Origin: Phycisphaerales bacterium
GTDB lineage: Bacteria; Planctomycetota; Phycisphaerae; Phycisphaerales; SM1A02
Assembly: GCA_009691785.1 (NCBI GenBank)
Contig: SIAM01000003.1
Location: forward strand, 1 to 64,000
DNA length: 64,000 bases
Direction of reading: 5' to 3'
This document shows, piece after piece, positions 7,728-26,194 of the stretch. The notes below the pieces were generated by a model. That model was not told the origin of the DNA. It was given only the letters and a program-made list of their open reading frames with translations, and did no database searches. The position numbers and the translations under genes are program-made. Each line of letters opens with the position of its first letter. The stretch's first letter is position 1.

Positions 7728-9005
7728 TTACAAAAGCGCGATGGCAACTTCACTGGCCAACATGCGGCCCCGCGCGGTCAAGCGAAGTCGCGCATCCACT
7801 TCCTCAAGCAACCCATCCGCGCGAAATTTTGCGATAGCAATGCGACGCACCGTGGCGCGCGCGCCCTTGCAAAGCAATTCCTCAACGCGTTCGCGCGCCA
7901 TGCCATCAAGCAAGCGCAACCCCATCATAAATGTCTCGCCAATTTGTCCGTCCGCATCCAAGCGCTCCACATCTTGCACGGGCGCAAAGCCGCTGGTCTC
8001 CAACCAATCGGAAAGCCGCGGCACATTGCGCCAACGCAATCCATCAACATGGCCACTGGCCGCTGGACCCGCCGCGAACCAATTGCAATTGTTCCAATAC
8101 AAAATGTTGTGCTGACAACGATGTCCAGGCTTGGCCCAATTTGAAATTTCATAATGTTCGTAACCCGCATCGCCCAACATGCGCGCCGCAAGTTCATGCA
8201 TTTCCACTTCCAAATCCTCGCCAATCGCCTTGATTTCACCGCGTGCATGGCGCACGCCAAGCGGCGTGTTGGATTCATACATCAATCCGTAGCACGACAT
8301 GTGCTCTGGTTGCAACTGCAATGTGGCAAGCAAATCGCGCCGCCACAAATCAATGGTGGCGCCGGGGATGGCGTAAATTAAATCAAGATTGATGCCTTTG
8401 ATTCCAGCTTTGCGCAAGCGACCCACCGCGCGGCCAACCGACGCTGGATCATGCGTGCGCTCCAATGCCGCGAGCAATTCTGGTTGGAAACTTTGCGCGC
8501 CAAGTGAAACGCGCGTGACGCAATGCTTGGCCAACACCGCGGCAATTTCTTCGCTGACAGTTTCTGGGTTGGCCTCCACGGTCCACTCCGCGCCTGCGCG
8601 CCACTTCAACACGCCGCGAATGGCCGACAACATTCGATCAAGCAACTCTGGCCGCAACATGGTGGGCGTGCCACCCCCAACAAATAGCGTTTGCAATTCT
8701 CCGTGCTGCACGCGCGCCCATTCATGCAATTCATTTTCCATGCGCGCCACAAAAACTTCTTGTCGATCTTGCGCGTCCACAAAGGAATAGAAATCACAGT
8801 AATGACATTTGTGGCGGCAGAATGGAACATGCACATACATGCCGTCGCCGCGCGCACCGCCCACGGGCAACTGGGCCTGCAAATCCGCGGGCAACGCCGA
8901 GGTGGTTGGCGCCATGGACAGCGATGTCGTGGCTGACTGGGTGAGTTTCACAATGTCCACAATAGACGCTTTGTCGCACATGTCATATTCAAAATGAACT
9001 GCCAC
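7728..9005 (-). CDS. hemW: HemW-type radical SAM protein
   Basis: Radical SAM protein of the HemW/HemN-like family, proposed heme chaperone. The [4Fe-4S] motif CRHKCHYCDFYS (CxxxCxxC) follows MYVHVPF. LFVGGGTPTML, EANPE, RVSLGAQSF, and the HemW-type HNILYWNN near residue 305 are all present. The C-terminal HemN_C region ends the protein. HemN proper has an extra cysteine just after the cluster motif, which is absent here, so HemW is the better call. The true start is uncertain: in-frame methionines at 9005, 8981 and 8915 are all possible because the N-terminal 50 residues are not conserved. Confidence 0.88.
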   Translation of the reverse strand: MAVHFEYDMCDKASIVDIVKLTQSATTSLSMAPTTSALPADLQAQLPVGGARGDGMYVHVPFCRHKCHYCDFYSFVDAQDRQEVFVARMENELHEWARVQHGELQTLFVGGGTPTMLRPELLDRMLSAIRGVLKWRAGAEWTVEANPETVSEEIAAVLAKHCVTRVSLGAQSFQPELLAALERTHDPASVGRAVGRLRKAGIKGINLDLIYAIPGATIDLWRRDLLATLQLQPEHMSCYGLMYESNTPLGVRHARGEIKAIGEDLEVEMHELAARMLGDAGYEHYEISNWAKPGHRCQHNILYWNNCNWFAAGPAASGHVDGLRWRNVPRLSDWLETSGFAPVQDVERLDADGQIGETFMMGLRLLDGMARERVEELLCKGARATVRRIAIAKFRADGLLEEVDARLRLTARGRMLASEVAIALL

Positions 9006-9116
9006 GGCGGATCACAAATCCAAAGCCGCGTTTAAATTGGGCGCAAGCCAAGAATCAGCGCATTTTGCCCGCAATTTGCCCACAAAATTCCGAGCCCTTC
9101 CCGTAGCATCACTCGC

Positions 9117-10442
9117 GTGAAAGATACAAAAAATACGGCCGTTGTTGGTTTGCAATGGGGCGACGAGGGCAAGGGAAAGATTGTCGACCTGCTGACATCG
9201 CAACATGATGTGATTGTGCGCTACAACGGCGGCGCCAACGCCGGCCACAGCGTGGTGGTGGACAAGGAACGTTACGCGCTGCATTTGGTGCCCAGTGGAA
9301 TTTTGCACGCCGACAAAACGTGCGTGATTGGCAACGGCGTGGTGGTTGATCCAGAAAAGTTGCTTGAGGAAATTGATGGCCTGCGCAAACGCGGCGTGCG
9401 CGTGTCGGATAATTTGCAAGTGAGCGACCGCGCCCACGCGGTGCTTCCCTATCACAAAGAGCAAGACGCGGCGCTAGAGGAATATTTGGCCGGAGTCACC
9501 GAGCACGACGCGGGCAGCCTAGCCATTGGAACAACGCGACGCGGAATTGGTCCGGCCTACGGCGACAAGATCAACCGCTCCACCGCCATTCGCATGGGCG
9601 ATTTGCTGGACGCGAAGTATTTGCAGGAGCGTCTGCGCGTGATTTGCCGTTTGCGCACCAAGGAATTGCAAGCTCTTGGCGTGAAGGCTCCGCCACTGGA
9701 TCCGGACGCTCTGGCGCAGCGCTTTGCCAAAGCTGGCGAAACGTTGCGGCCGCACATTAAGGACACGGTCTATGGTTTGCACGACGCGGTGAAAGCTGGC
9801 AAGCGCATTTTGTTTGAGGGCGCCAACGCCTGCTTGCTTGACATTGATCACGGAACCTATCCATTTGTGACCAGCAGCAATTGCTCCACGCTTGGAATTC
9901 CCGCCGGCACTGGCATGCCCGGCAGCAAGATTCACCGCGTGCTTGGAATTATGAAGGCCTACACCTCGCGCGTTGGCGCTGGACCATTTCCAACCGAGTT
10001 GCTTGATGAAGTTGGTCAAGGCATTCGCGAGCGTGGCCGCGAATTTGGAACAACTACTGGTCGGCCGCGGCGCATCGGCTGGCTTGATCTGGTCGCGGTT
10101 CGCTACGCGGTCATGATTTGCGGGGCCACCGGCGTGGCGTGCACGCTGCTTGATGTGCTCAGCGGCGTTGACGAATTGAAGATTTGCACCAAGTATCGCC
10201 TGCCCAGTGGTCAGGAAACCGATCGATTCATTCCAGACGCGCATCGACTTCAAGGCGTGACGGCCATGTACGAAACGCTTGCGGGATGGTCCGAACATGT
10301 TCAATATGCCCAGGATCGCTCGCAACTTCCGCCAAACGCCCGCAAATACTTGGATCGTATTGAAGCGTTCCTTGGCGTTCCCATTGAAATGATCGGCGTT
10401 GGTCCAGAGCGAACTCAAACTTTGGTCGCCGCAGGAACCTAA
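9117..10442 (+). CDS. purA: Adenylosuccinate synthetase
   Basis: Joins IMP and aspartate using GTP, first committed step to AMP. 441 aa, normal length. The P-loop-like GLQWGDEGKGK (residues 11-21) with catalytic Asp16, NAGHSVV, GTTRRGIGPAYGDK, FEGANACLLDIDHGTYPFVTSS and TTTGRPRRIGWLDLVAVRYA are all intact. The start is GTG at 9117; no in-frame ATG precedes the conserved N-terminus. The uppS gene follows after 33 bases. The GMP-branch gene guaB lies elsewhere in the window. Confidence 0.96.
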   Translation: MKDTKNTAVVGLQWGDEGKGKIVDLLTSQHDVIVRYNGGANAGHSVVVDKERYALHLVPSGILHADKTCVIGNGVVVDPEKLLEEIDGLRKRGVRVSDNLQVSDRAHAVLPYHKEQDAALEEYLAGVTEHDAGSLAIGTTRRGIGPAYGDKINRSTAIRMGDLLDAKYLQERLRVICRLRTKELQALGVKAPPLDPDALAQRFAKAGETLRPHIKDTVYGLHDAVKAGKRILFEGANACLLDIDHGTYPFVTSSNCSTLGIPAGTGMPGSKIHRVLGIMKAYTSRVGAGPFPTELLDEVGQGIRERGREFGTTTGRPRRIGWLDLVAVRYAVMICGATGVACTLLDVLSGVDELKICTKYRLPSGQETDRFIPDAHRLQGVTAMYETLAGWSEHVQYAQDRSQLPPNARKYLDRIEAFLGVPIEMIGVGPERTQTLVAAGT

Positions 10443-12273: not shown

Positions 12274-13377
12274 TCAGGGACGCGGGCAAATTAAATCCGC
12301 CGTCACCGCGGACAAATCCGCGCAGCCCGCAAGCGCCATGGCGAGATCAAATTCTTGAAACAAAATTTGCAACACTCGCGCCACGCCAGTTTCTCCACCC
12401 GCGGCAAGTCCCCACAAAATTGGACGCCCCACTTGCACGGCATTGGCGCCAAGAGCGAGCGCGCGAACAATATCAACGCCACGGCGGATTCCACCATCAA
12501 CAATGATTGGACCACGATCAGAAACCGCGCGCACAATCGCGGGCAAGGCTTCGGCCGTTGGCGCGGCGCCATCCAGCTGTCTGCCGCCATGATTGCTCAC
12601 CACCACCGCGGCCGCGCCATGATCAAACGCCCGGCCAGCGTCATCGGCGCGCAAGATTCCTTTGACCATAATTGGAATCTGCACGGCTTGGCGAATCACA
12701 TCAAGGTCCTTCCATGTCAACGATGCGTCAATGGTCCAACCTAATGCATCGCCTATTCCACTTCCAGAATGACCAGTTGGTTGACCGTGCCGCTGCAAAT
12801 TCACAATGGACATTCCATCTGGAACACGAAAGCCGTTGTGAATGTCGCGCTCGCGCACGCCCCACACCGGCGTGTCAACAGTGATCATGAGCGCTTTGCA
12901 ACCCGCGGCCTGCGCGCGTTGCGCCAGCGCCTTGGTGAAGCCGCGGTCGCTTGAAATATAAATTTGCATCACCACATCCGCGCTTGATGCTGTGACAACA
13001 TCCTCCACCGAGCGCGTGGACAAACTTGAAAGCACCATTGGAACCCCCGCTTTTGCCGCGGCGCGCGCCGTGGCCACTTCGCCCTGCGGGTCAGCCATGC
13101 ACTGCATGGCGGTGGGCGCGATCAACATGGGAAACGACAAGTTCATGCCCAATAGTTGGCCGCGCATGTCGCGCGTGGACACATCAACCAGCGCGCGCGG
13201 CAGCAATCTAATTTTTTCCCACGCGTCAATGTTGGCTTGCAAGGTCCACTCGCCCCAGGCTCCGGAGCGGTAATAATCAAAGGCCATCTTGCTTAAGCGC
13301 TCTTGCGCCAAGGCTTGAAAACTTTCGGTATTGAGAAGCGAGTTCATATCGTGCGTCATTGAAACAAGAATACTCAC
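12274..13377 (-). CDS. FMN-dependent alpha-hydroxy-acid dehydrogenase/oxidase
   Basis: Member of the glycolate oxidase / L-lactate dehydrogenase family; oxidises a 2-hydroxy acid to the keto acid with FMN. The 367-aa product shows IAPTAMQCMADPQGE, MITVDTPVWGVRERD, the FMN-contacting Lys in IMVKGI, and the active-site block VVSNHGGRQLDGA (catalytic His and substrate Arg) plus DGGIRRGVDIVRALALGA. Whether the substrate is lactate, glycolate or mandelate cannot be decided. The start could be 13377 or MTHDMNS at 13359; upstream residues are not conserved. It is monocistronic as far as can be seen. Confidence 0.92.
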   Translation of the reverse strand: MSILVSMTHDMNSLLNTESFQALAQERLSKMAFDYYRSGAWGEWTLQANIDAWEKIRLLPRALVDVSTRDMRGQLLGMNLSFPMLIAPTAMQCMADPQGEVATARAAAKAGVPMVLSSLSTRSVEDVVTASSADVVMQIYISSDRGFTKALAQRAQAAGCKALMITVDTPVWGVRERDIHNGFRVPDGMSIVNLQRHGQPTGHSGSGIGDALGWTIDASLTWKDLDVIRQAVQIPIMVKGILRADDAGRAFDHGAAAVVVSNHGGRQLDGAAPTAEALPAIVRAVSDRGPIIVDGGIRRGVDIVRALALGANAVQVGRPILWGLAAGGETGVARVLQILFQEFDLAMALAGCADLSAVTADLICPRP

Positions 13378-13429
13378 TCAACTTGCGACAAGAGCGCTTG
13401 AAAGCATGCGCCAAAAACGATTCGTTCAA

Positions 13430-16180
13430 TCACGCATGCGGCAAGGAAACTTTGACAATTTCATTCAGCAAGTCTTCAAGCTTATATGGTTTTTGTAATT
13501 GGCTTATTGGAATTCCAGGGACAATTTCTTGGGTCGCAGAATGGCAAAGCAAAATCACTGGCGGCATGGGCTGCACACCAGAATGAATTCCATCCAATAC
13601 TTCACGCAGTGATCCGGTAATACTTGCTTGATCAAGAATGAGAACGCAACGCCCACCGGTGTGCTTGACGGCCGCGAGTAACTCCACATTGTTCTCAACA
13701 GTACTCACGCTATAGCCAGTGGCTTGCAACGCCTCCACCAGCATGGGTCGCAGCAACGGATGATTTTCCGCCAACACAATGGGCAATCGATCTTGAATGA
13801 ATGATTCGGCGACGGTGGGAAGCGAGATGCAAAAAGTTGTTCCCTCTGCGCCTACTGAAACAGTTGCGTGTCCGCCCGCGGATTCAGCGAATCTTTTTAC
13901 GGCGGCCAAACCCATCGCTGTTCTTCCGCGCAAAGAACCATCGGGGGCGAGCGCTTCAAAGGCGTGAATCTGCTGATCCGCATTCAGCGGTTCACCTTGA
14001 TCAATGCACTCGACGCGCATCAGTGGTTCCGCTCCAACAAGCGCCTGTGAAATGCGCAGCGTGATCAAACCTGTGTTGGCCAATGCCTCGGTCGAGCGCA
14101 TCAACAAATTTAAAATCGCCTGCTGCATGCGGCTTGAATCAATAGCCACGCGCTCGCGACCGTCGGTGAGGTTTTTCACCACAACGGAAATAGTTCGCGG
14201 CAAGTTGGGGCTAAGCAAGCGCACGGCATCGCGCACGGCGTCGCTCACCACAATCGCCGGCGCAGAAGCACCCAGGTGTTCGCCTTCTCCAAGCAAAATA
14301 AGATTTCGGCTCATGGCTTTTGCGCCCGCGACCGCAAGTTGAATGACTTCCAAACTTTCAACGGCCTTGCTTGGTAGTCCAGTGGTGATGTTTGCCAACG
14401 AAGCGTGCGCGCGAATGATCGAAAGAACGCTGTTCAATTCGTGGGCAAAACCACTCGCGAGCAACCCAAGCGACTCCATGCGTTCGGCGGCGCCCAAACT
14501 TACTTCAAGACTGCGCCGCTCGGTGATGTCGGTTTGTGTTCCGGTGATGCGCAAGGCTTTGCCGCCCTCTGCGCGCTCCACCACTTTTCCGCGGTCAAGA
14601 ATCCAGTGCCATGCTCCGTTACTTGCGCGGCGACGATGTTGGGATTCGTAATGCGATGTTTTCCCCGCCAAATGCGCGTCCCAAGTTTGCTTCACGCTTG
14701 GAGCATCTTCTGGATGAATGAGCAGATTCACATCGGGGGTTGTCAACGACACTTCACCCGACTTGTACCCAAGCATTGTGGCGCAGCGATCGCTCACCAC
14801 ACTGGGCGCGCCATCAAATCGATAATCCCAAAATCCGTCGCTGCTGGCTTCAATGACCAACTTCAAACGCTCTTCGGTTGCCTTGGCCTCGGTTTCTTTG
14901 CGTCGACTTTCGGAAATATCGCGGATGAACGCGCTAAAACCTCCAGCATGTGGATTCACGGTCAACTCAACAGGAAAAATAATCCCATTGCGTTTCATTG
15001 CCGTGATTTCCGTTCGCTTTCCTAAAATTGGCCCCACGCCTTGGGTATGATAGCGGTGCATGCCCTCTTGGTGCGCCTTCACAAGCGAAGGCGGGATAAT
15101 GGTATCCGTCAGCGGCTTGCCCAAGACTTCGGAGTCCGTCCAACCAAACAACAACTCCGCCTGCTTGTTCCACAAATTAATTTTCCCATGCAAATCAATC
15201 GACACCACCGCGTCAAGCGCGGTGTTAATGACTGTCTTGAGAAGATCGCCTTTTTCCTGCGCGCTGGATTCGCTCATATCCAAATCTGATAGCAACTGAT
15301 GCAAGTCGATGGCCAATCGAACAAGCTCTGACAATTCATCGATGACATTTAATTCAGCGCGATTGGGTCCACGACGAACTGGCAAATGAAACTCAAGCAA
15401 GGCGCGTATTGAAATCTTTTTGGAATCACGAATAGGAAAACTCCACACGGAAACTAAACCATGTGAGCGCAGCCGTTGGGCATACGTGCTCCATCGTGGA
15501 TCTTGCTCAAGATCATTGGCCAGGACACGCTGTCCTGTATGTATGGCGAACAGTCCCGGCGCGGCATCGATTGACTTTCCAAATAAGCCAAGCATATTTT
15601 GAATTTCGCTAGGCAATGTCGGACACAAGCCATCGCCTAGAACTCCGTCTTCAGAAATTGGCGTCAATAAACAGAACACCTCACTTGGAAGAACCTTCTC
15701 GGAAAATTTAGCCACCGCTGTAAGTGTTTGCGATAGCGAAGATCGCTGTGCGACCAGTTCAAGAATTTGCCGTTGGGCCGTGAGCAATTCGCTTTCCACA
15801 ACCGCGCCAGTGCTTGGACGAATGGCCAGACCCGCCACCGTTTCACCTTTGCCGCGAACACCAGTTTCAATGGCGTACAAAACCGCCTCAACATGAATTG
15901 AAGCTATTTCAGGTCGCTGATGTTCAAGGTGAAGCAACAACGGCGGCAGCGGCGAACCCGCATTTGCTAATTCATCAAGCCATGGAAACGCCGGATGAAT
16001 TTCCCGGCCAAACAACGCGCTCAGCGACCGTCCCTGCAACTCATGTTGCGGCCGCCCCAAATATTTTGCGGCGCCGTGGCTCAGCGCAATAACGGAACCG
16101 GATCCATCAATCAACAGCACTTCAAGTGCGTCACCTATTTGTGATTCCGATGGCGTAGATATGTCAACCGGTGGTGTCAC
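13430..16180 (-). CDS. Multi-PAS/GAF hybrid sensor histidine kinase with degenerate ATPase
   Basis: 916 aa, no membrane segments, GTG start. Domains in order: PAS (about 20-90), GAF (160-300), PAS (325-435, TALDAVVSIDLHGKINLWN), PAS_3 (445-560, ending ITGTQTDITERR), HisKA with the phosphoacceptor in FAHELNSVLSIIRAH, HATPase (670-775), and receiver (790-910). The ATPase is degenerate: the N-box reads NLLMRSTEA, with Arg where the Mg-binding Asn is expected, and the G1 box reads DQGEPL. The receiver keeps Asp in LILDQAS and Lys in QKPYK but has AEN in place of the acidic pair. It lies 15 bases after the last respiratory operon gene and may sense redox or oxygen; this is inferred from position. 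Confidence 0.85.
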   Translation of the reverse strand: MTPPVDISTPSESQIGDALEVLLIDGSGSVIALSHGAAKYLGRPQHELQGRSLSALFGREIHPAFPWLDELANAGSPLPPLLLHLEHQRPEIASIHVEAVLYAIETGVRGKGETVAGLAIRPSTGAVVESELLTAQRQILELVAQRSSLSQTLTAVAKFSEKVLPSEVFCLLTPISEDGVLGDGLCPTLPSEIQNMLGLFGKSIDAAPGLFAIHTGQRVLANDLEQDPRWSTYAQRLRSHGLVSVWSFPIRDSKKISIRALLEFHLPVRRGPNRAELNVIDELSELVRLAIDLHQLLSDLDMSESSAQEKGDLLKTVINTALDAVVSIDLHGKINLWNKQAELLFGWTDSEVLGKPLTDTIIPPSLVKAHQEGMHRYHTQGVGPILGKRTEITAMKRNGIIFPVELTVNPHAGGFSAFIRDISESRRKETEAKATEERLKLVIEASSDGFWDYRFDGAPSVVSDRCATMLGYKSGEVSLTTPDVNLLIHPEDAPSVKQTWDAHLAGKTSHYESQHRRRASNGAWHWILDRGKVVERAEGGKALRITGTQTDITERRSLEVSLGAAERMESLGLLASGFAHELNSVLSIIRAHASLANITTGLPSKAVESLEVIQLAVAGAKAMSRNLILLGEGEHLGASAPAIVVSDAVRDAVRLLSPNLPRTISVVVKNLTDGRERVAIDSSRMQQAILNLLMRSTEALANTGLITLRISQALVGAEPLMRVECIDQGEPLNADQQIHAFEALAPDGSLRGRTAMGLAAVKRFAESAGGHATVSVGAEGTTFCISLPTVAESFIQDRLPIVLAENHPLLRPMLVEALQATGYSVSTVENNVELLAAVKHTGGRCVLILDQASITGSLREVLDGIHSGVQPMPPVILLCHSATQEIVPGIPISQLQKPYKLEDLLNEIVKVSLPHA

Positions 16181-16195
16181 GTGTGGTGCTGATTC

Positions 16196-16732
16196 CTACA
16201 AGTTTGGTGGAGGAGGAAAGAGTTCAACAGGCGTATCGTACTGCTTTGCCTGCCGCCGGGCGGCTTGGCGAATAAACAGAAATGCGGCCAAAGGAATCCA
16301 AGCCAACATCCACGCGGACTGGCTTTGCCAGCGTGGCGGCGCGGGCGCAACTTGCAATTCGCCGTTCAACACAAGCCCTCCGTCAGCGCTTGCAACGCGA
16401 ACTGAAATTGTCCAGAGCGAAGCCTCCGCGCACTCAATCAATGCGCGTTGACCCAGTCCATCCGGGTCGGCGCTCAGCGCGCACTGAATGGGCGCGTCAT
16501 GTGAAGCGCCATGCGCGCTCAAGAAACATTCAATAGGCAGCAATCCGGGACTGACCCGCACAATCACCGCCACCATTCCAACCGTCGCTCGTGATGGATT
16601 CACCATCATCACCGCATGTTCTTGCCCAAGCGTGGCGGTGGCGATGACTTGACCACCGTCACCGTTGGCGCGGCTGGTGATGGCGCACAAGAACAGCGTG
16701 AAGAAAATTGTTGTTGTGGCGCGCGAATTCAT
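16196..16732 (-). CDS. Exported membrane-anchored protein at the end of the respiratory operon
   Basis: 178 aa of unknown function. It has an N-terminal signal peptide (TTTIFFTLFLCAITSRA), a beta-rich exported domain with HAVMMVNPSRATVGMVAVIVRVS, and a C-terminal membrane helix (WMLAWIPLAAFLFIRQAA) followed by a basic tail. The domain could be an Ig-like fold similar to FixH, YtkA or CopC proteins that handle copper near cytochrome oxidases, but no clear metal-binding motif is visible. Its ATG overlaps the stop of the CtaG-ferredoxin gene (ATGA), so it is translated together with that assembly factor. Confidence 0.65.
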   Translation of the reverse strand: MNSRATTTIFFTLFLCAITSRANGDGGQVIATATLGQEHAVMMVNPSRATVGMVAVIVRVSPGLLPIECFLSAHGASHDAPIQCALSADPDGLGQRALIECAEASLWTISVRVASADGGLVLNGELQVAPAPPRWQSQSAWMLAWIPLAAFLFIRQAARRQAKQYDTPVELFPPPPNL

Positions 16733-19032
16733 GGGTTAAGCAATCCCCGCATTTGCATTGGTTGCAGGACAATCCACACTGCAAGCACCCACCATGACAA
16801 CGCCGCGCACAGGGAAATACTTGCGCGTGCCGCAACGGAGAACATGTTTGGCAAGGCGCCGCTGTTGGGTTGTTCAATGCCTCGCTCGGCGCGCGACCAC
16901 ATCAGCGACAAGGTGACCAACAATCCCGCGCCAACTATGCACAACTGCGCGGGAATAAGCCACGCTGGCATAATGGCGCAGCAATTTGCGCTCCACTGCG
17001 GCGCGCCGAATCCATTCAACCCAAAGTCTTGCGCCGCGCGTTGAAGTGGCGGCCACGCCGAGCGAAAGCCGGTGACAAAATGAAAACCGAAATGCGCCAA
17101 CCACATGGCGATCGACAACGGCATGAGCGACAAAGTCACTTGCGCGATCACGGCGTGAAAGTGTTGCGAATACACGCGCGCTTCAATCCACGCCGCCAAC
17201 ACCATGGGCAGCGCAATGGCGATCATGCAACTCAACACAATCAGAGTGACGGCCACAAAGTTGGAGCCAATCCACTCGCGACACTCTTGCACCATGACAA
17301 GCATGGGCTCGGTCATAGCCATGGCGTTGGCGAATGCGCCCACCGCGATCACGACCAGCAACATAATGAAATCCGCGCGCTTGGACAAAACTCCAATGCT
17401 TGAGCGCCAACCGTCTTGGGCAATATCAGTGAACGGCACGCGCGTGAGCACACCAATGTTGTCATGCGGGCACGCCGAGACGCAGTCAAGGCAAAAAGTG
17501 CAATCCAAATTGCCCACTTTTTTAGGCATAAACAAACCAGTTCCGCAACCAGGCGCGGCGGCGTTTCCGCGCAGGCAATCCTGCGTTTGGCAATTGACGC
17601 ACACGGTGGTTGAGCGCAGTCGAACCTCCAGTGGACTGGCCACGCTCAGCGCCATTTGATATTGACCGATGGGACACAACCACTTGCAAAATGTGGCTCC
17701 CTCAAACAGCAAGTCCACAACGGTGACAGCGACAAAGTATCCCGCGATAATCCACGCCGTGGCGAAACTGGAATCCCACAGCGACCAGATTTCGTAACTC
17801 AACAACCATGCCAAGATCAATCCGGCGGCCAACCATTTGGTGCTGAGCGCGCGCGGCCAACGAAATCGTGGAGTGATAAAGCGGCGCAAGAATGTTCGCG
17901 GCGCGATCAAAGGACATGCCATGCACGCCAAGTTGCCACCCGCCACAAGAGCCATGGCGGTGAACCCGCGCCAATGCGTCCAAGTCCAAGTGCCCGCGAT
18001 ATTGGTGGATGCCTCGCGCGGACCATACAAACCATCAGCCACAACCAGAAGCGCGCCAAGCAACATGACCCAACGAAGCGCGCCGCGCATGCGCGCGGAT
18101 TTCAACGCCGGTCCAATCACGGGCAACGCAAGCACATCAAAGAGTGGTCGCTTGATGCGTCGATGTGTGTTTGACAATTGCGGCAGCGAAATGTTTTTGA
18201 ACGCTCGCGCGCGTTGTGAGCGTGTGCTTGAAAGCGCGTTGAACAGAATCACCACGGCTGGAATTAAATACACCAGTTGCCCAGGAATCCACATGATTGC
18301 CGCGGCTTCTTGCTGATCCGTAAGCGCCGACACGCCAAAGGTTGGCGCGGTGGATTCGTACCATGGGTAAATCGCGCTGGGCGCAAAGGCAAGTATGGCG
18401 GCCACAATTGTGTTGGCCACATCCGCGGTGAGTAAATACAAGGGCATGACAATACGCGGCCACGGATTTCGCCATGGATAGGGCGCAACCACGCTCCACC
18501 AAAATAAAATGCCGCCCCACAGAAAACACATGTGCTCCGCCAAGTGCCACGCGGGAACTTCCAGCGCCAATTGATAGGTCATAGGCAAATGCCAACCCCA
18601 TGTCAGCAACACCATGGCCAACCAACCTGTCATTGGATGTGTCAGGCGCATACCCAAATGTTGCGCGCGCGGCCACGCAAGAATTGGTCCAAGCACATCG
18701 CGACTCAGCCAGCGCGGAACACCCGCCAACAACGGCGGCATGGGCCAACCCAACAGCAACAACGGTGGAGCGATCATGGTCAGCAGAAAGTGTTGCGTCA
18801 TGTGAGCGGCAAGACGCCAAGACGCCAAAGCGTCAATGGGTGATTGCAACGCGATCCACAACGCAAGCACGCCCGCGCTAAAAAAGATTCCGCGGCTCCA
18901 ACACCATCGCATTGGCATGGCGCGATGAAGACGCCGCCAGCCGCGCCAATACACAATTAAAATTGCGCACGCGACAAATGTAAATGGCGCAAGAACATTC
19001 CACGCCGACCACATGGTCGCGGAAGCATTCAT
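16729..19032 (-). CDS. CtaG - polyferredoxin fusion membrane protein
   Basis: 767 aa with many membrane helices. Residues 1 to about 275 form a CtaG (caa3 oxidase assembly, copper delivery) domain: AAHMTQHFLLTMIAPPLLLLGW, WHLAEHMCFLWGGILFWW, and DQQEAAAIMWIPGQLVYL. From about 310 to the end it is a NapH/NosR/CcoG-like membrane ferredoxin: CMACPLIAPR, CKWLCPIGQYQ, CVNCQTQDC, then a classic [4Fe-4S] motif CTFCLDCVSACPHD, and four further membrane helices. No frameshift is needed, so this is a real single polypeptide. It sits three bases after cytochrome b. A role joining electron transfer to copper reduction/insertion in the oxidase is inferred. Confidence 0.85.
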   Translation of the reverse strand: MNASATMWSAWNVLAPFTFVACAILIVYWRGWRRLHRAMPMRWCWSRGIFFSAGVLALWIALQSPIDALASWRLAAHMTQHFLLTMIAPPLLLLGWPMPPLLAGVPRWLSRDVLGPILAWPRAQHLGMRLTHPMTGWLAMVLLTWGWHLPMTYQLALEVPAWHLAEHMCFLWGGILFWWSVVAPYPWRNPWPRIVMPLYLLTADVANTIVAAILAFAPSAIYPWYESTAPTFGVSALTDQQEAAAIMWIPGQLVYLIPAVVILFNALSSTRSQRARAFKNISLPQLSNTHRRIKRPLFDVLALPVIGPALKSARMRGALRWVMLLGALLVVADGLYGPREASTNIAGTWTWTHWRGFTAMALVAGGNLACMACPLIAPRTFLRRFITPRFRWPRALSTKWLAAGLILAWLLSYEIWSLWDSSFATAWIIAGYFVAVTVVDLLFEGATFCKWLCPIGQYQMALSVASPLEVRLRSTTVCVNCQTQDCLRGNAAAPGCGTGLFMPKKVGNLDCTFCLDCVSACPHDNIGVLTRVPFTDIAQDGWRSSIGVLSKRADFIMLLVVIAVGAFANAMAMTEPMLVMVQECREWIGSNFVAVTLIVLSCMIAIALPMVLAAWIEARVYSQHFHAVIAQVTLSLMPLSIAMWLAHFGFHFVTGFRSAWPPLQRAAQDFGLNGFGAPQWSANCCAIMPAWLIPAQLCIVGAGLLVTLSLMWSRAERGIEQPNSGALPNMFSVAARASISLCAALSWWVLAVWIVLQPMQMRGLLNP

Positions 19033-19035
19033 GAA

Positions 19036-20559
19036 TTACTTTCCAGCTTCGCTGGCGACGGCCTTGGGCGCTTGATCCGGCGAAGATTGACGCTCCATTG
19101 CGCCTGGAATGTTGGATTCTGGCGCGCCTGAATTGCGCAGCGTTGTCATGAACGCAACCACCGCGGTGGTCTCGGCGCTGGAAAGATTTTTCCCGTAGGC
19201 CGGCATGTTGCCGCCGCCTTGTTGCACTTGCCGTACCAATTGGTCCCATGATTTGCGCGATCCAACATTGTCAAGATTGGGTCCACGCAATCCGCCTTGT
19301 CCACCCAAACTGTGGCAATTGCGACATTGACTGTGTTGCAAGACAAGCGCGCCCTGCATCTCAAGCGGCGTGCGCCCCACCAAATATTGCGGCGGCGTTG
19401 GCATGCTGGTCCAAGCGTCCATCACAGGACTCCACGCGCTGACCACACCCAACCATGTCAATGTTCCCAGTGCGGTGGCGATCAGCACATACGCAATCAC
19501 CGCGCCGGGGCGGCGACTTGGCGCGCGCTCGCCGCGATTGGAAATGAGCGGCAAGCCTAGAAGCGCCAAGACAACAATAGGCGGCGCAATCAACAACACC
19601 GCGGTTTCAATTTGCGGCGGCATCAACGCCATAGCCGTGAAGATCCACAGGAACGCGTAGTCGGGCCGCGGATTGGCGTCGATGATTGTTGGATTGGGAA
19701 TTCCGTTTGGTCCAACGGGTCCAAGGTACGCCGCTAAAAGTCCAACAATGATCAGCATCAATCCACAGAACACCATGTCGCGTTGCGCCGCGTCGGGCAT
19801 AAATGCAACGCCAGTCTTCTTGATGCGCTCCTCATATTGCGCCACATATGTTTTTGGATCCACCACCATGCCGGGCTTTGGCATTTCGCTAATTCCGTTT
19901 TTCAAAATCAGCGCCATATGCGCGCCAATGAGCCCAATTGTTAGGCCTGGCAGCACAAACACATGCAGCGCGAAGAAGCGACTGAGCGTGGCGCCGCCAA
20001 TGTATGGCCCGCCCAACATGACATTGCGCATCTGGTTTCCAAGCATGGGCACGCGGTCCACAATGGCCGCGCCAATGCCAAGGCCCCAATAGGCGTCTTG
20101 GTCCCAGCGCATGATTTGACCAGTGAAAGCCAGCGCCAATGTGCAGAACAACAACAGCACGCCAACCATCCACATGAGTTCACGCGGAAACTTGAACGAC
20201 GCGTGCAAGAACACCTGGCTCATGTGGATCACCACCATGAGAATCATGGCGTTGCTGCTCCACGCATGCAGCGCCCGCAACATCCAACCAAATGGAACTT
20301 GCTGATCGATGTATTGCAAACTGGAGTACGCCTCCGCGGCGCTGGGCACATACATGGTGGCCAGCAAAATGCCAGTGACCACTTGAATGCTGAAGAACAT
20401 CAGCGAGGCGCTGCCAAACACATACCACCACTTGGCGTCGCGCGGCACGCGGTGCGTCAAGATGGGCTGCACAAAAGTGATCACGCCAGAGCGCGACTCG
20501 GTCCAACCAAGCAGACCTCCTACCATTTTTATGCCAATATTTTTAATGGTGCGAAACAT
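19036..20559 (-). CDS. Cytochrome b of the quinol:cytochrome c reductase, with C-terminal cytochrome c domain
   Basis: 507 aa. Heme b ligand histidines appear in two helices: ALHAWSSNAMILMVVIH and FALHVFVLPGLTIGLIGAH. The C-terminal half is short, subunit-IV-like. The Qo-site PEWY motif reads PDYA (RPDYAFLW). After the last helix, residues about 405-480 form a cytochrome c domain with CRNCH and the Met ligand candidate NMPAYG. The ATG at 20559 shares one base with the Rieske stop (TAATG), so this start is preferred over a longer upstream frame. Fused cytochrome b-c chains are known in some Gram-positive-type bc complexes; here electrons could pass straight to the oxidase. Confidence 0.92.
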   Translation of the reverse strand: MFRTIKNIGIKMVGGLLGWTESRSGVITFVQPILTHRVPRDAKWWYVFGSASLMFFSIQVVTGILLATMYVPSAAEAYSSLQYIDQQVPFGWMLRALHAWSSNAMILMVVIHMSQVFLHASFKFPRELMWMVGVLLLFCTLALAFTGQIMRWDQDAYWGLGIGAAIVDRVPMLGNQMRNVMLGGPYIGGATLSRFFALHVFVLPGLTIGLIGAHMALILKNGISEMPKPGMVVDPKTYVAQYEERIKKTGVAFMPDAAQRDMVFCGLMLIIVGLLAAYLGPVGPNGIPNPTIIDANPRPDYAFLWIFTAMALMPPQIETAVLLIAPPIVVLALLGLPLISNRGERAPSRRPGAVIAYVLIATALGTLTWLGVVSAWSPVMDAWTSMPTPPQYLVGRTPLEMQGALVLQHSQCRNCHSLGGQGGLRGPNLDNVGSRKSWDQLVRQVQQGGGNMPAYGKNLSSAETTAVVAFMTTLRNSGAPESNIPGAMERQSSPDQAPKAVASEAGK

Positions 20560-21101
20560 TAGACCGTTTGCTCCAAGCCTGGAAGTCGTCCGGCATCGAT
20601 CAGCAATCGTCCGTTCACGATCTTCCATTTGTATTCAAACAATCCCCGCGGTGGTGGCCCACTGGCGTGGCTGCCGTCCTCGTAATACACGCCGCCGTGG
20701 CAAGGACACATGAACAATTTGCTTTGCTGGAACCATTTCACGGGGCAGCCCAAATGCGCGCAATTCACGGCAAATACTTGAAATTGCGCGGGCTTGTAGG
20801 AGCGCACCCACACCGCTTGCTCGGCGCTGGCGCCGTCGGTTGGCGCGGCGTTTGGATTGGTGAACTTGCCCAGGCGAGTTTCACCCTCTGGAAAATCAGC
20901 TGTGCCACCCAATTCAACCCAGGAGTTTTTGTACTTGCGCAACGCTGGAGTGATGGCGTAGCCAATCAACGGAATAGATGCGATGGCTCCGCCGATACCC
21001 ATGAGGCCAATTCCAAATTTCAACATAAATCCGCGGCGCGCGCTTGCTGGCGGCGTTTGCGGCGGTTGATTTGATGGTGTGTTTGAACAATCGCAACTCA
21101 T
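20559..21101 (-). CDS. Rieske iron-sulfur protein
   Basis: 180 aa. One N-terminal transmembrane anchor (FGIGLMGIGGAIASIPLIGYA) preceded by RRGF, suggestive of Tat export. The [2Fe-2S] ligands are in CAHLGCPVKWF and CPCHGGVYYE, followed by GPPPRGL. It accepts electrons from quinol in the bc complex. The gene starts nine bases after the di-heme cytochrome gene and overlaps cytochrome b by one base, the QcrC-QcrA-QcrB order known from actinobacteria. Confidence 0.95.
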   Translation of the reverse strand: MSCDCSNTPSNQPPQTPPASARRGFMLKFGIGLMGIGGAIASIPLIGYAITPALRKYKNSWVELGGTADFPEGETRLGKFTNPNAAPTDGASAEQAVWVRSYKPAQFQVFAVNCAHLGCPVKWFQQSKLFMCPCHGGVYYEDGSHASGPPPRGLFEYKWKIVNGRLLIDAGRLPGLEQTV

Positions 21102-21110
21102 GTGGCGCTC

Positions 21111-21818
21111 CTATTGCTTTTGACTTGCCGTTGAACGAAGAAAGGCAACGACATCTGAAATTTCTTGCGATGAAAGTTTGCGATCCGCCGCTTGGTGAGG
21201 AAACGGTCCGCTCCAGCCGGGCATGCCGCGCTCTGGTCTTCCAAATAAAATCGCGGTACGAAGTCCTTGGTCCGTGATCAAGCGCAAATAATTTGGATCT
21301 GTCACGCTGCCCGCGCCTGTAACACCCTTGAAGTTTGGCGCGCCGTGGCACGATTGACATGTTGCCGCGTACACCGCTTGACCATTGGAAGCATTGCCCG
21401 CAGGCGCCAACTTGACCGACCAAGGAATGCTCAACGCAACACCATTCTTGCCCCACGCCTCAAGCATGCCGTCAACAAAGTCAGCGACTTGCTTTGCATC
21501 CCACTGCGCAAGTGAAGCCGGTCCAGAACCAGGGCAAAAACCACCTGAAACGCCGTTTGTTGTGATGTTGATCAACGCCTCACGGCCAACACTAGCCAAG
21601 TAATTTGCATCGGCAAGTTGCCGCGCCGCGCCGTTGACGCCGTTGGCGCCGTGGCACGCCGAACAATTTTGCGCGTAGTTTTTCATGGCGAGTTGCTGAG
21701 TTGTGAGGACAATATTTTCGGCCGGATCGGTGGATGAAATTTTCCCGCACGCGCCCACGCACGCCGCCGCAACGATCACGCCAAGAAGCGCCGCGATATT
21801 TCTGAAGGCGTTTGGCAT
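21111..21818 (-). CDS. Di-heme cytochrome c lipoprotein (QcrC-like)
   Basis: 235 aa with an N-terminal export signal and a lipobox-like ACVGAC. Two cytochrome c domains have the heme motifs CSACH (residue about 53) and CQSCH (about 155), with Met ligand candidates in GMLEAW and RGMPGW. It has no C-terminal membrane helix, unlike actinobacterial QcrC; the lipid anchor may replace it. The start shares one base with the stop of the upstream membrane protein gene. Position directly before Rieske and cytochrome b suggests it carries electrons from the bc complex to subunit II of the oxidase. Confidence 0.9.
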   Translation of the reverse strand: MPNAFRNIAALLGVIVAAACVGACGKISSTDPAENIVLTTQQLAMKNYAQNCSACHGANGVNGAARQLADANYLASVGREALINITTNGVSGGFCPGSGPASLAQWDAKQVADFVDGMLEAWGKNGVALSIPWSVKLAPAGNASNGQAVYAATCQSCHGAPNFKGVTGAGSVTDPNYLRLITDQGLRTAILFGRPERGMPGWSGPFPHQAADRKLSSQEISDVVAFLRSTASQKQ

Positions 21819-22657
21819 TATTTCTTCACTTCCTTGTTGGCTTCAAATCCAAATCGCTCTTGCATGGACAAGTTCTGCATGGAGGGAACTTTGGTCCATC
21901 GGCTAATCACAAACCCGCATGTCACACCAAAGGCAAATTGACTGGCCACAAACCACGGCCAAGACACAAAGGCCTCCAGCTTTGGATTGATAATTCCAAT
22001 GCTGCCGTACAAAACGCCAGTCCACAAAATAGGCGCGACAATTCCGCCAAACAAAATTGGCCGCTGTGGCGCGATTGGCAATGTGATGGCGTAGACCAAT
22101 CCAACAACCATGCAGCCAAACACATGAATGACCAGCGCGATCAGGAACCAGTCCATGTGGAACACTTTCAAACTGTCCACATTGGCCGCCTCCACCGATG
22201 GAAGAAAAACTCCCGCGAGCAAATTAATGGGCATCCAGAAACTTTTTTCCTTCAGCAGCCCCCATGCCAGGGCAACAGCGGCCATGGAAATGCCGCCAAT
22301 CAAACCACCCCAAATACCCGAGCGATATGGATGAATGTGCTCTGGCAACGACACTCTGCCAACGGTTGGCCGCGCCGCAAATTGGGGAGCGGGATCAGGA
22401 ATTTCGCTGCCGCTTGGAAGTTCTTCTAGCGCCTCGTTGGGAAATACAACTTTGATCCAGCCAATCAATCCCACAACCATGCAAATAATTCCCACCGCCA
22501 TGACCGCGCGACTGGTGATCAGTCCCATGAAGAGCAATGTGAGGCCGAACGCCGAGATCATGGGCGCGCCGGTCGGCTCTGGAACACCACGCAGATATGG
22601 AACCTCGTGCTGGCTTAATTCTTTTTCAACTTGATTTTGCATTTGGTTACGGCTCAT
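21818..22657 (-). CDS. Unknown multi-pass membrane protein between oxidase and bc genes
   Basis: 279 aa with about seven membrane helices (for example ISAFGLTLLFMGLITSRAVM, IWGGLIGGISMAAVALAWGL, and FIALVIHVFGCMVVGLVYAI-type segments) and a conserved-looking LPEHIHPYRSGIWGG loop. The first part (about 65 residues with two helices) resembles the small fourth subunit of cytochrome oxidases; the rest I do not recognise. The ATG at 22657 overlaps the coxC stop (ATGA), which fixes the start. Its place inside the operon makes it a likely structural subunit or linker of the respiratory complex. Confidence 0.75.
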   Translation of the reverse strand: MSRNQMQNQVEKELSQHEVPYLRGVPEPTGAPMISAFGLTLLFMGLITSRAVMAVGIICMVVGLIGWIKVVFPNEALEELPSGSEIPDPAPQFAARPTVGRVSLPEHIHPYRSGIWGGLIGGISMAAVALAWGLLKEKSFWMPINLLAGVFLPSVEAANVDSLKVFHMDWFLIALVIHVFGCMVVGLVYAITLPIAPQRPILFGGIVAPILWTGVLYGSIGIINPKLEAFVSWPWFVASQFAFGVTCGFVISRWTKVPSMQNLSMQERFGFEANKEVKK

Positions 22658-23256
22658 GGTCGCATTCCCACGATGTAGACGGTTGTGAACACCACAATCC
22701 AAACCGCGTCAACAAAGTGCCAGTACCAGCTGACAAGTTCAACGCGCAAATGATCGCGCACCACATGAATGTGCCCCATGAGTGACAACACAAGAATGGT
22801 GGTGAGCAAACACAGACCAACGATCACATGGAAGGCGTGGAAGCCAACCAAACTGTAATAGGTTGTTCCAAACAAATTGGTGCTGATGGTGAGATGGTGG
22901 TCCACAATGAAACCCCTCCACTCCATGGCGGTGCCGTAGATGAAATAGCCGCCAAGCACAATGGTGAGCAACATCCAGAAACGGAATACGCCCATGTTGC
23001 TGCGCGCAAGTCCACGCAGCGCAGCGATCACCGTGAAGGAACTGGCGATCAGCGCCGCGGAATTCAACAAAACAGGCTTAATATCAATGACTTCCCGTGG
23101 CAGCGGACCGGAGGAACTTTTGCCAATATAGAACAAATACGCCACGATAAAGCCAGCGAAGAACCAGCACTCGGCGAAGATAAGACACGCCATACCCACC
23201 TTGCCGCGGCCAGGCGCGCTGCTTGGAATTAAATGTGTGTGTGGTATGGAAGTCAT
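22654..23256 (-). CDS. coxC: Cytochrome c oxidase subunit III
   Basis: About 200 aa with five predicted helices, the short form typical of caa3-type oxidases. Typical blocks: GKVGMACLIFAECWFFAG, YYSLVGFHAFHVIVGL, and SWYWHFVDAVWIVVFTTVY at the C-terminus. An in-frame ATG at 23289 would overlap coxA; the one at 23256 lies 17 bases after the coxA stop and is preferred. It has no redox centre but stabilises subunit I and proton uptake. Confidence 0.93.
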   Translation of the reverse strand: MTSIPHTHLIPSSAPGRGKVGMACLIFAECWFFAGFIVAYLFYIGKSSSGPLPREVIDIKPVLLNSAALIASSFTVIAALRGLARSNMGVFRFWMLLTIVLGGYFIYGTAMEWRGFIVDHHLTISTNLFGTTYYSLVGFHAFHVIVGLCLLTTILVLSLMGHIHVVRDHLRVELVSWYWHFVDAVWIVVFTTVYIVGMRP

Positions 23257-23273
23257 GGAGTTCTCTGGTTGCG

Positions 23274-24941
23274 TTATTCGTAGAAACAATCTGGATCTTC
23301 AGGATGCTTGCGATCCCACAAAGGCCGTGGACTTGTGCAGGTTGGAATCTTTGGAAAGTTCTCGCTTGGCGGCGGACTGCTTGTGGCCCATTCCAAAGTC
23401 CACGCGTCCCATGGATCAGGTCCGGCAACGCGCCCATTGATGAGCGACTTGATGATGTTGGTCATGAGCAACAACACTCCAACAATTTGAAATGGCACGC
23501 CTGAACTTGAGATTAAATTCCAAATTTCAAAGCCGCGTCCAGGTTGATAGGTGTACACGCGCCGAGGCATGCCAAGCATTCCGCTGAGATGCATTGGAAA
23601 GAATGTCAAAGTGAGTCCAATCATGAACATCCAAAATGTCCACTTGCCCATGGGCTCACTCAACATGCGGCCCGTGGCTTTGGGAAACCAATAGAACACG
23701 GCGCTGAAGACGGCCAACATGGTTCCACCAAACAACACATAGTGGAAATGCCCCACCACAAAATAACTGTCGGACAATTGCCAATCAAATGGCACAACCG
23801 CAAGCATAATTCCAGTCAAACCGCCAAACAGGAACATAACCAGAAATCCCGTGGCAAACAGCATGGAAACGGTGAAGCGAATGTTTCCGCCCCACATGGT
23901 GCCAATCCAATTGAACATCTTCATGCCCGTTGGCACCGCGATTAAGAACGTGCTGGCAGCGAAGATGGAGTTGAGCCACGGCGGCAAACCAACCGAGAAC
24001 ATGTGGTGAACCCACACGCCAAGTGAAATGAACGCTATGGACAATGTCGCCGCCACCATGAGTGGGTATCCAAAGATCACTTTGCGGCTGAACACTGGAA
24101 TGATTTCACAAATCATTCCAAAGGCCGGCAGAATTAAGATGTAGACCTCTGGATGTCCAAAGAACCAGAACAAGTGTTGCCAGAAAATAACGCTGCCTTG
24201 TTGCTGCGGATCAAAGAAGTGCGCGCCAAGAAATCGGTCAAAGAGCAGCATGACTTGCGCGCCAGTGAGCACGGGCAAGGCGAGCAACACCAATATGCCA
24301 ACCGTGAACATGAGCCACACAAAGAGAGGCATGCGCATGAAGGTCATGCCCGGACACCGCATGCACACAATGGTGGCCATGAAATTAATGGCCGTGGTCA
24401 TGCTGCCAAATCCGCTGACCATGATTCCAAGAATCCAATAGTCGGTTGCGTGGCCAACGCTAAACGCCTTGCTGGTCAGCGGCGAATAGGCGAACCAACC
24501 AACATCCGGCGCGCCGCCCATTCCATACAGGCCGTCGCCACCAATAAATGAGTAATACAGCAGCAATCCGCCGAAAATGAACAGCCACAGGCCAAAGGCG
24601 TTCAAGCGCGGAAACGCCATGTCGCGGGCGCCGATCATGAGCGGAATTAAATAATTTCCAAAGCCCAGCAACACCGGCATGCCCACCAAGAACACCATTG
24701 TTGTTCCGTGCATGGTGAACATTTGGTTGAAACCGTGCGGAGTCAGCACATCATTGAGTGGCTTCAACAGTTGCAGGCGCATGAGCGTGGCTTCAATGCC
24801 ACCCAACACAAAGAAAATCAATCCTGCGCCGATATACATCATGCCCAGTTTTTTATGGTCGACTGAAATCACCCAACTATGCACGCGACTGCCAAAGCCC
24901 ATGCTGGTTTCGCTTGTTGGATGAATTGGAGCGGTGGTCAT
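23274..24941 (-). CDS. coxA: Cytochrome c oxidase subunit I (caa3/aa3 type)
   Basis: 555 aa, twelve helices. The heme-copper oxidase signatures are complete: MHGTTM (low-spin heme ligand), WQHLFWFFGHPEVYILILPAFG with CuB His, the cross-linked Tyr and the Glu of A1-type enzymes, VHHMFSVG (CuB histidines), and VGHFHYVLFGG (heme a3 and a ligands). It reduces O2 to water and pumps protons. It begins seven bases after coxB, so the genes are cotranscribed. The C-terminal tail, rich in Pro/Ser, is a short cytoplasmic extension. Confidence 0.97.
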   Translation of the reverse strand: MTTAPIHPTSETSMGFGSRVHSWVISVDHKKLGMMYIGAGLIFFVLGGIEATLMRLQLLKPLNDVLTPHGFNQMFTMHGTTMVFLVGMPVLLGFGNYLIPLMIGARDMAFPRLNAFGLWLFIFGGLLLYYSFIGGDGLYGMGGAPDVGWFAYSPLTSKAFSVGHATDYWILGIMVSGFGSMTTAINFMATIVCMRCPGMTFMRMPLFVWLMFTVGILVLLALPVLTGAQVMLLFDRFLGAHFFDPQQQGSVIFWQHLFWFFGHPEVYILILPAFGMICEIIPVFSRKVIFGYPLMVAATLSIAFISLGVWVHHMFSVGLPPWLNSIFAASTFLIAVPTGMKMFNWIGTMWGGNIRFTVSMLFATGFLVMFLFGGLTGIMLAVVPFDWQLSDSYFVVGHFHYVLFGGTMLAVFSAVFYWFPKATGRMLSEPMGKWTFWMFMIGLTLTFFPMHLSGMLGMPRRVYTYQPGRGFEIWNLISSSGVPFQIVGVLLLMTNIIKSLINGRVAGPDPWDAWTLEWATSSPPPSENFPKIPTCTSPRPLWDRKHPEDPDCFYE

Positions 24942-24948
24942 ATGTGTT

Positions 24949-26064
24949 TCAGCGTAGGGTTAAAAGATATGCGGTGACGGCGTCAAGTTCCTGCGGATCA
25001 AGTTGCAAACTTGGCATGTTGCAACCCGGCTTCAAGGCTTGCGGATTGTCAATCCACGCCTTCAATGTTGTTGGATCAAGCGGCGTCACACCAGAGGCAA
25101 TGGTCTGGCGGCTCATGAGATGCGTGAGATCTGGCGCAAATTGCCCATCCGAAACACCTTTCACCGTGTGGCAATTGGAGCAGGCATATTCCTGAAAGAT
25201 GTCGCGACCCATGGCAACGGATGCGTCGTTGACCGCCGGCGCGATTTGCGTTTGCAACCACGCGTCAAACTCCGCGGGCTTGCTGGCCACAACGCGCAAC
25301 AACATGCCGGCGTGTTGGTTGCCGCAATATTCCGCGCACTGACCCAAATACAAACCTTCGCTCTCGGCGTTGAACCATGTGTAATTGGTGTGATTGGGAA
25401 TCACATCCATTTTTCCAGCCAGCGCCGGCACCCACCACGAATGAATCACATCCGCGCTTTCAAGGCGCAGCCACACAGGTCGATTGATGGGCACATGCAA
25501 CTCGTTGGCCACAATCACTTCGCCGCCAAGAAAGCTGTCGTCTAGATAGCGAAATTCCCACCACCATTGATGGCCAATCACCACAACATTCAGCGCGCCT
25601 TCTGGAGCCTTGGTGAGTTCAATGGATCGAATGGTTCGCACCGTGGTCAGGGTCAACACAAACACAATCAACAGCGGAATAATGGTCCAGGCAATTTCCA
25701 CTGGATTGCTGCCGTACACCTGGCGTGGCTCATCCTTGGACTTGTCATTTTTTTTGCGGCGATACACAATCACGCCGTAAAAAATCATGCCCTCCACCAC
25801 AATGAACAAACCGGCGCAAATGCCCAAAACAAGCCATGAAAGATCATGAATCATGCGCGCGGGCGGTCCGTGCGGATCAAAGATGTTGGGCAGAATGGTT
25901 GGAACTGTTGGCGGCGCAGTGCTTGACGCGGCGGCGGCCGTGCCTGGCGCGCAAATTTCCGCGGCGGCAAACGCACTGGCCGACGCGTCACAACTCAATG
26001 TAATTAAAAAACACAGCGCAAGAAATGCTCCCGCGCGAATTAAGTTCGTTTGCAAAGTCAACAC
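24949..26064 (-). CDS. coxB: Cytochrome c oxidase subunit II with fused cytochrome c (caa3 type)
   Basis: About 371 aa. Signal peptide or lipoprotein-like N-terminus (LIRAGAFLALCFLITLSC), two membrane helices (SWLVLGICAGLFIVVEGMIF and EIAWTIIPLLIVFVLTL), then the CuA cupredoxin domain with HQWWWEFRY, SADVIHSWWVP and the CuA ligands CAEYCGNQHAGM. A C-terminal cytochrome c domain has CSNCH and Met in PGCNMPS. There is no ATG at the right place. GTG at 26064 gives a good signal peptide; a TTG at 26100 is the upstream limit. It is the first gene of the respiratory operon. Confidence 0.93.
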   Translation of the reverse strand: MLTLQTNLIRAGAFLALCFLITLSCDASASAFAAAEICAPGTAAAASSTAPPTVPTILPNIFDPHGPPARMIHDLSWLVLGICAGLFIVVEGMIFYGVIVYRRKKNDKSKDEPRQVYGSNPVEIAWTIIPLLIVFVLTLTTVRTIRSIELTKAPEGALNVVVIGHQWWWEFRYLDDSFLGGEVIVANELHVPINRPVWLRLESADVIHSWWVPALAGKMDVIPNHTNYTWFNAESEGLYLGQCAEYCGNQHAGMLLRVVASKPAEFDAWLQTQIAPAVNDASVAMGRDIFQEYACSNCHTVKGVSDGQFAPDLTHLMSRQTIASGVTPLDPTTLKAWIDNPQALKPGCNMPSLQLDPQELDAVTAYLLTLR

Positions 26065-26194
26065 GGTCGAAGTGTATACATTTAATTTTGTCACGACCAA
26101 AATATTTCATGGCAAAAAAAATTCGCGTCTGCCTGCTCGTGTCGCGAAGCACAAAATAGAATTCACGCAATTCAAACACACGCCAGAAAGAAAA

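Follow-up and report, generated by a model that had tools for sequence, protein, structure and literature searches.

CtaG fusions and the reduction of copper by iron–sulfur proteins are both already known (PMC9145763; PMC7558416). CtaG of Bacillus subtilis is a protein of seven helices that consists of CtaG only, and CtiP of Corynebacterium glutamicum, which serves the bc1-aa3 supercomplex, joins CtaG to a second membrane part (PMC9145763). Among the reductases, CcoG is a membrane cupric reductase bearing iron–sulfur clusters, and CopZ of Archaeoglobus fulgidus is a copper chaperone fused to an iron–sulfur domain that reduces Cu(II) (PMC7558416). In the portions of PMC9145763 and PMC13344008 drawn on here, two questions are left open: whether aa3 oxidases have a dedicated copper reductase, and whether CtaG acts on CuA, CuB or both. 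The subject of this analysis is a 767-amino acid frame in a 64,000-nucleotide stretch of a Phycisphaerales bacterium (assembly GCA_009691785.1, contig SIAM01000003.1, positions 1 to 64,000; hereafter the window), in which a CtaG domain is followed by a 470-residue membrane ferredoxin module (the C-module) at the end of a bc-aa3 oxidase operon. No description of CtaG joined to a NapH-like module was found in the open-licence literature searched, including the accessible portions of PMC8239418 and PMC6431628. A natural CtaG–iron–sulfur fusion kept within one oxidase operon type in several phyla joins the copper reductase question to that of the CtaG site.

The fusion is real and forms one chain. 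Open reading frame (ORF) analysis of the minus strand found no internal stops (0) in the 767-amino acid frame. Protein searches of 61 genomes, the window's own and 60 relatives, produced matches in 29, of which 19 carry unbroken fusions, 4 have fusions cut by contig ends, 3 have the C half only and 1 has a short fragment. In the remaining two, a stop or frameshift breaks the frame (G009) or unread bases interrupt it (G022). Genome G020 was counted among the 19, although its fusion is without the iron–sulfur segment. Since the fusion recurs unbroken in related genomes, sequencing error or misassembly as the source of the join was ruled out. The preliminary description, which had allowed that the halves might be separate genes in all relatives, was thus borne out as to both the uninterrupted frame and the presence of the same domain pair in other genomes. 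Identity to the window protein ranged from 37 to 87% among the 24 other full-length members of a 25-row alignment (A1), which omits the G020 fusion (L067); L067 is included in the 26-row count and in the set of 63 modules described below. Named contigs with the fusion belong to Planctomycetota, Verrucomicrobiota and one Myxococcales bin, the last of which could reflect misbinning. A wider draw of 392 genomes of the phylum showed PF09678 (Caa3_CtaG) matches in 36, with 34 above the cut-off; as judged by frame length and the loci read, 13 of these are fusions (one cut by a contig end) and 21 are short frames.

The CtaG half has the features of a canonical CtaG. Its PF09678 score is 175.1 bits against a cut-off of 27.7, it is the only CtaG copy (1) in its own genome, and residues H77, H81, H148 and D239 are identical in 22 of the 22 CtaG domains aligned, fused and unfused. 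D239 is probably the counterpart of D249 of the B. subtilis protein, which the N half also resembles in its place in an oxidase operon; the difference is the ferredoxin module added C-terminally. The likeness to CtiP is limited to the joining of CtaG to another membrane part. In CtiP the CtaG domain lies at the C end and the partner is a CopD homologue, whereas in the window protein CtaG comes first, beginning at residue 27 with no CopD-like part ahead of it, the partner is a ferredoxin, and Pfam gave no CopD match at E ≤ 0.1.

The gene order ctaC-D-E-ctaF-diheme cytochrome c-Rieske-cytochrome b-fusion (Table 1) was kept in all 28 loci with enough upstream sequence (L051–L058, L060–L068, L044–L046, L048 and L099–L105), and truncated loci show the same order up to their cuts. 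All 22 genomes with a best subunit I match at E ≤ 2.2e-157, a range that includes the ctaD of this operon, carry the fusion or parts of it. CtaG without the module adjoins ctaD as well, in 7 of the 7 loci read (L108–L114) from the 21 genomes with short-frame CtaG. CtaG is thus found beside ctaD whether fused or not, which indicates that it belongs to the oxidase and that the ferredoxin module has been added to it in one type of operon. A link between the fusion and oxidase assembly, as had been suggested earlier, is therefore strongly supported by the canonical CtaG residues and by the conserved end position in the bc-aa3 operon; the contrary expectation, that no such link would be found, did not hold.

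The nature of the C half required more attention. NapH/MauN proteins have two CxxxCP pairs and two ferredoxin cysteine sets, and this was the best-scoring family for the C-module. Nonetheless, the match of the fusion to NapH/MauN TIGR02163 (1.5e-8, 34.5 bits) is well below the cut-off of 213, there are no nap or mau genes in the window operon, and the motifs correspond only in part: both ferredoxin sets are present, the first with odd spacing, but the first pair is CxxCP and only one CxxxCP is found. Other matches were weaker (NosR in NCBIfam, 0.075; Fer4_5 and Fer4 in Pfam, 0.016 and 0.018, both in the C half). All 36 aligned modules matched TIGR02163 weakly, whereas 2 of the 36 matched CcoG. 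The CcoG profile TIGR02745 matched neither the window protein at E ≤ 0.1 nor its C half at 0.01, while a true CcoG (L118) encoded in a congeneric genome by a separate gene adjoining cbb3 genes scored 405.5 bits against a cut-off of 316.7. These results ruled out CcoG as the identity of the C half. Judged by its profile matches, the C half is a distant NapH relative with extra C-terminal helices. The preliminary description had proposed a NapH-, NosR- or CcoG-like ferredoxin carrying CxxCxxCxxxCP in one chain with CtaG; the fusion, the motif (residues 511–522) and, best of the three, the NapH likeness stand, and the CcoG type does not. What the C-module shares with CcoG/RdxA/FixG is that it belongs to a membrane protein, has sites for two [4Fe-4S] clusters, is encoded with a heme-copper oxidase and is a proposed copper reductase. 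It differs in cluster spacing and in five post-cluster helices with invariant histidines and methionines, and the fusion sits in an aa3/bc operon whereas CcoG genes adjoin cbb3 oxidase genes. CopZ follows the same logic as that proposed here but is cytosolic and not a membrane protein; this comparison was made by description and not by sequence.

FixG_C, the Ig-like domain at the C terminus of CcoG, gave no Pfam match in the fusion, the C end of which is helical in the model, and the profile was equally without a match in G005, a genome that has a true CcoG. It also missed the CcoG-like genes at the cbb3 loci L117, L118 (the one scored), L120 and L121. Since FixG_C misses CcoG in these planctomycetes, the absence of a FixG_C match cannot be read as the absence of CcoG. 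The idea that the fusion replaces a missing CcoG, based on a FixG_C profile that has no match over cut-off in fusion genomes and matches in fusion-free cbb3 genomes, was therefore dropped as a profile miss. Searches by sequence for relatives of solved structure found none for the whole protein, and the module profile matched ferredoxin stretches only, mostly PsaC. Cytochrome b561 (Z 5.2) and Dcytb (Z 4.6) were considered as known folds for the module and given no weight because they were listed among many unrelated rows.

A set of 63 distinct modules (38 fused, 14 alone and 11 with a YHS domain) was used to locate invariant residues. Partial module ORFs from L068 (twice), L075, L077 and L078 were left out, and the class labels come from profiles and simple motif rules, so that L089 is labelled as alone though its start looks YHS-like. 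Besides the residues listed in Table 1, P638 is invariant in 63 of the 63. The cluster cysteines follow the patterns CxxCx4Cx9C (478–496) and CxxCxxCxxxCP. AlphaFold2 modelled the C-module alone with a predicted local distance difference test score (pLDDT) of 91.4 and a predicted template modelling score (pTM) of 0.91; for the whole fusion the mean pLDDT was 80.2 and the pTM 0.60, with low pLDDT at residues 269–293. The loop from 265 to 316 contains 11 lysines or arginines and 1 acidic residue. From the order of the helices and the loop charges, the linker, both CxP pairs and the clusters are predicted to be inside, in the cytoplasm, and the CtaG histidines and aspartate, M573, H647/H651 and M759/M761 outside.

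The unfused relatives of the C-module provided further context. In the tree of the 63 modules, a branch with 100/100 support separated a YHS/Nap-linked side of 16 rows from all fusions, eight unfused modules and L049, which begins at a contig edge with its N half unseen. The fused rows need one change in the module tree without L049 and 2 with it, and the CtaG tree needs one change without the assembly-broken fusions L068 and L070 and 3 with both. A single origin of the fusion fits both half-trees, where the support of the fused clade (86/78) is below the tree tool's own mark and the CtaG tree was a quick one with no bootstrap. The eight unfused modules nearest to the fusions (L079–L085 and L115) sit in a small cassette with a His-rich membrane protein (6/8), a YtkA-like lipoprotein with M-x-HAGM (7/8) and an H[ED]GPPFP protein (6/8); gaps in L085 and L115 are contig cuts, and in L079 the H[ED]GPPFP protein was not seen. 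Pfam confirmed YtkA in the 3 cassette lipoproteins tested (6.7e-12 to 2.7e-14). In B. subtilis, YtkA/CtaK aids copper delivery to the oxidase and has been proposed to serve CuA (PMC13344008). The His-rich protein of the cassettes (L079–L084; for example L080:11224-11814) contains LAHWxEH, FWHHxEHAxLQ and VELHLFYN and had no Pfam match in the 3 of 3 tested. That it could be a distant CtaG was unsupported (hhalign probability 5%). A further class of module carries a fused YHS domain (2.3e-11 in L086), which is of a heavy-metal-binding type. YHS/Nap-linked modules mostly adjoin NapA-like, NapG-like and NapH-like genes; the three NapA-like enzymes scored had NapA as their best match, under the cut-off. 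In L086 the YHS-fused module (8199-10112), part of a NapA-like cluster, adjoins a NapH-like protein with a FixH-like tail. A Deinococcus ficus plasmid (L124:8051-10332) carries a His-rich anchored protein and an unfused module that ends in PMVHR and not PMxMR.

Taking these data together, we give about an even chance to the reading that the fusion serves as an assembly factor for the bc-aa3 oxidase of its own operon, with the ferredoxin module reducing copper for CtaG and the oxidase. Electrons from a cytoplasmic or quinol donor would traverse the membrane via the ferredoxin module, Cu(II) would be reduced to Cu(I) at an outer His/Met site of the C-module, and the CtaG domain would pass Cu(I) to the nascent oxidase, to CuB of subunit I more probably than to CuA of subunit II. 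Copper reduction by the ferredoxin half is plausible, and the copper reading draws on the YtkA cassettes, the YHS fusions, the lack of Cox11, the invariant redox and His/Met residues and the precedent of CcoG. No Cox11 was found in the 61 genomes. The preliminary description had copper handed to subunit II, which is not the role for which CtaG is chiefly known. Subunit II does have a CuA motif, so both the CuA and the CuB sites need copper, and CuA may also be a recipient. However, in the portions of PMC9145763 and PMC13344008 drawn on here the literature on CtaG leans to CuB in subunit I, leaving CuA open, because B. subtilis without CtaG retains heme a and has no oxidase activity. As a target, CuB in subunit I is no less likely than subunit II. 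A more specific proposal, which we consider possible and put forward tentatively, is that the single chain is both copper reductase and insertase: a transmembrane iron–sulfur wire would feed an outer site of His2Met2 type, and Cu(I) formed there would pass intramolecularly to CtaG and then to the aa3 oxidase. The C-module would then found a transmembrane metal reductase family separate from CcoG, with YtkA-linked and YHS-fused branches. The fusion supplies named residues for mutation: H647, H651, M759, M761 and the CxP pairs.

Several observations weigh against a role in copper reduction. Other planctomycete oxidase operons manage with CtaG alone. The invariant His/Met set is also kept in modules that neighbour NapA-like and NapH-like genes, in loci that showed no copper enzyme, and it may therefore serve something besides copper. 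One fused member, L067 (7633-9600, in G020), is without all eight cluster cysteines and keeps the CxP pairs, the histidines and the methionines. The window's own genome has SCO, on contig C52, beside a second oxidase subunit I. The 178-amino acid partner encoded directly downstream of the fusion has no conserved histidine, methionine or cysteine, and its likeness to known families is weak (FixH in 2/20 members and YtkA in 2/20). Fold searches with the C-module (Foldseek and VIA-align) returned nothing significant.

The alternative that survives best, though we regard it as somewhat unlikely, is that the C-module is a NapH-like, quinol-linked conduit that accepts electrons from quinol at the outer site and passes them either to the bc complex or to some other reduction in oxidase biogenesis, such as that of thiols or a step of heme a chemistry, copper not being its substrate. 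The weak but uniform matches of the modules to TIGR02163, with CcoG matched by so few, are consistent with such a conduit, as are the unfused relatives clustered with NapA-like, NapG-like and NapH-like genes and the location of the fusion gene directly after the cytochrome b gene. The NapH scores, however, are far under the family cut-off, the YtkA cassettes that hold the closest unfused relatives showed no Nap gene, and the joining to CtaG suggests copper. The regulator NosR, to which the fusion has a weak match, is one of the membrane ferredoxins with CxxxCP, and the clusters could accordingly be imagined as a redox or metal sensor that gates CtaG, so that oxidase maturation would require suitable electron, iron or oxygen conditions and there is no net electron transfer to copper. 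We think this improbable, since the two cluster sets (62/63), the two CxP pairs and the outer His/Met set (63/63) look like a conduit and CtaG is the sole candidate for an output domain. The operon shared with cytochrome b, Rieske and c subunits might also suggest an accessory respiratory subunit that remains part of the bc-aa3 supercomplex, providing an additional point of electron entry and using CtaG as its membrane anchor, but this is very improbable given that metal residues kept in every CtaG domain aligned would be pointless for an anchor. Both parts are found unfused in other genomes, yet a join of convenience between two uncoupled proteins of one pathway is the most doubtful of these explanations, considering that one origin fits both half-trees and that the join persists in Planctomycetota, Verrucomicrobiota and one Myxococcota bin.

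Table 1. Features of the fusion gene and its operon in the window (residue numbers refer to the 767-amino acid protein)
Feature	Position	Strand	Basis
CtaG–membrane ferredoxin fusion, 767 amino acids	16729..19032	minus	ATG start, ORF analysis and domain profiles
Caa3_CtaG domain, residues 27-266, seven predicted transmembrane helices	18235..18954	minus	Pfam PF09678, 2e-51; helices from model
H77-x3-H81 of CtaG, predicted outer face	18790..18804	minus	aligned CtaG domains
Basic linker, residues 267-297, predicted cytoplasmic	18142..18234	minus	loop charge, low pLDDT
C-module, residues 298-767: NapH-like membrane ferredoxin and five further C-terminal membrane helices	16732..18141	minus	profiles, model
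CxxCP, C370-P374	17911..17925	minus	C370, C373 and P374 in 63/63 modules
CxxxCP, C449-P454	17671..17688	minus	C449 and C453 in 63/63 modules
Eight cysteines for two [4Fe-4S] clusters, C478-P522	17467..17601	minus	62/63 modules, missing in L067
M573, predicted outer face	17314..17316	minus	63/63 modules
H647-x3-H651, predicted outer end of membrane helix (helix 625-669, model)	17080..17094	minus	both His in 63/63 modules
C-terminal PMQMRG with M759 and M761, predicted outer face	16744..16761	minus	M759, M761 and R762 in 63/63 modules
ctaC, oxidase subunit II, CuA motif CAEYCGNQHAGM, cytochrome c domain	24949..26100	minus	domain profiles
ctaD, oxidase subunit I (CuB)	23274..24941	minus	TIGR02891 over cut-off
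ctaE, oxidase subunit III	22654..23289	minus	domain profiles
Membrane subunit in ctaF place, no named family	21818..22702	minus	profiles and gene order of relatives
Diheme cytochrome c	21111..21818	minus	sequence and profiles
Rieske protein	20559..21101	minus	Pfam
Cytochrome b with fused c-type cytochrome domain	19036..20628	minus	ends 3 bases before fusion
178-amino acid partner: signal, short soluble domain, C-terminal helix	16196..16732	minus	directly downstream of fusion, start overlaps fusion end by 4 bases

Other oxidase loci were seen in these genomes. The second locus of the window's own genome (L116, on C52) includes SCO, oxidase subunits, heme o synthase and what seem to be alternative-complex-III genes. 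No cbb3-type subunit I was found in this genome, which is 92% complete; its two COX1 matches have scores in the range of aa3. Locus L074 (G017:C44) contains two CtaG genes without the module, three strong SCO matches and an apparent heavy-metal P-type ATPase. This contig may be a contaminant or a plasmid, given that the strength of its SCO matches is far above that of others in the family. Beyond the operon, positions 12274-16180 of the window hold a PAS-domain kinase-like gene and another gene, in the same order as in congeners.

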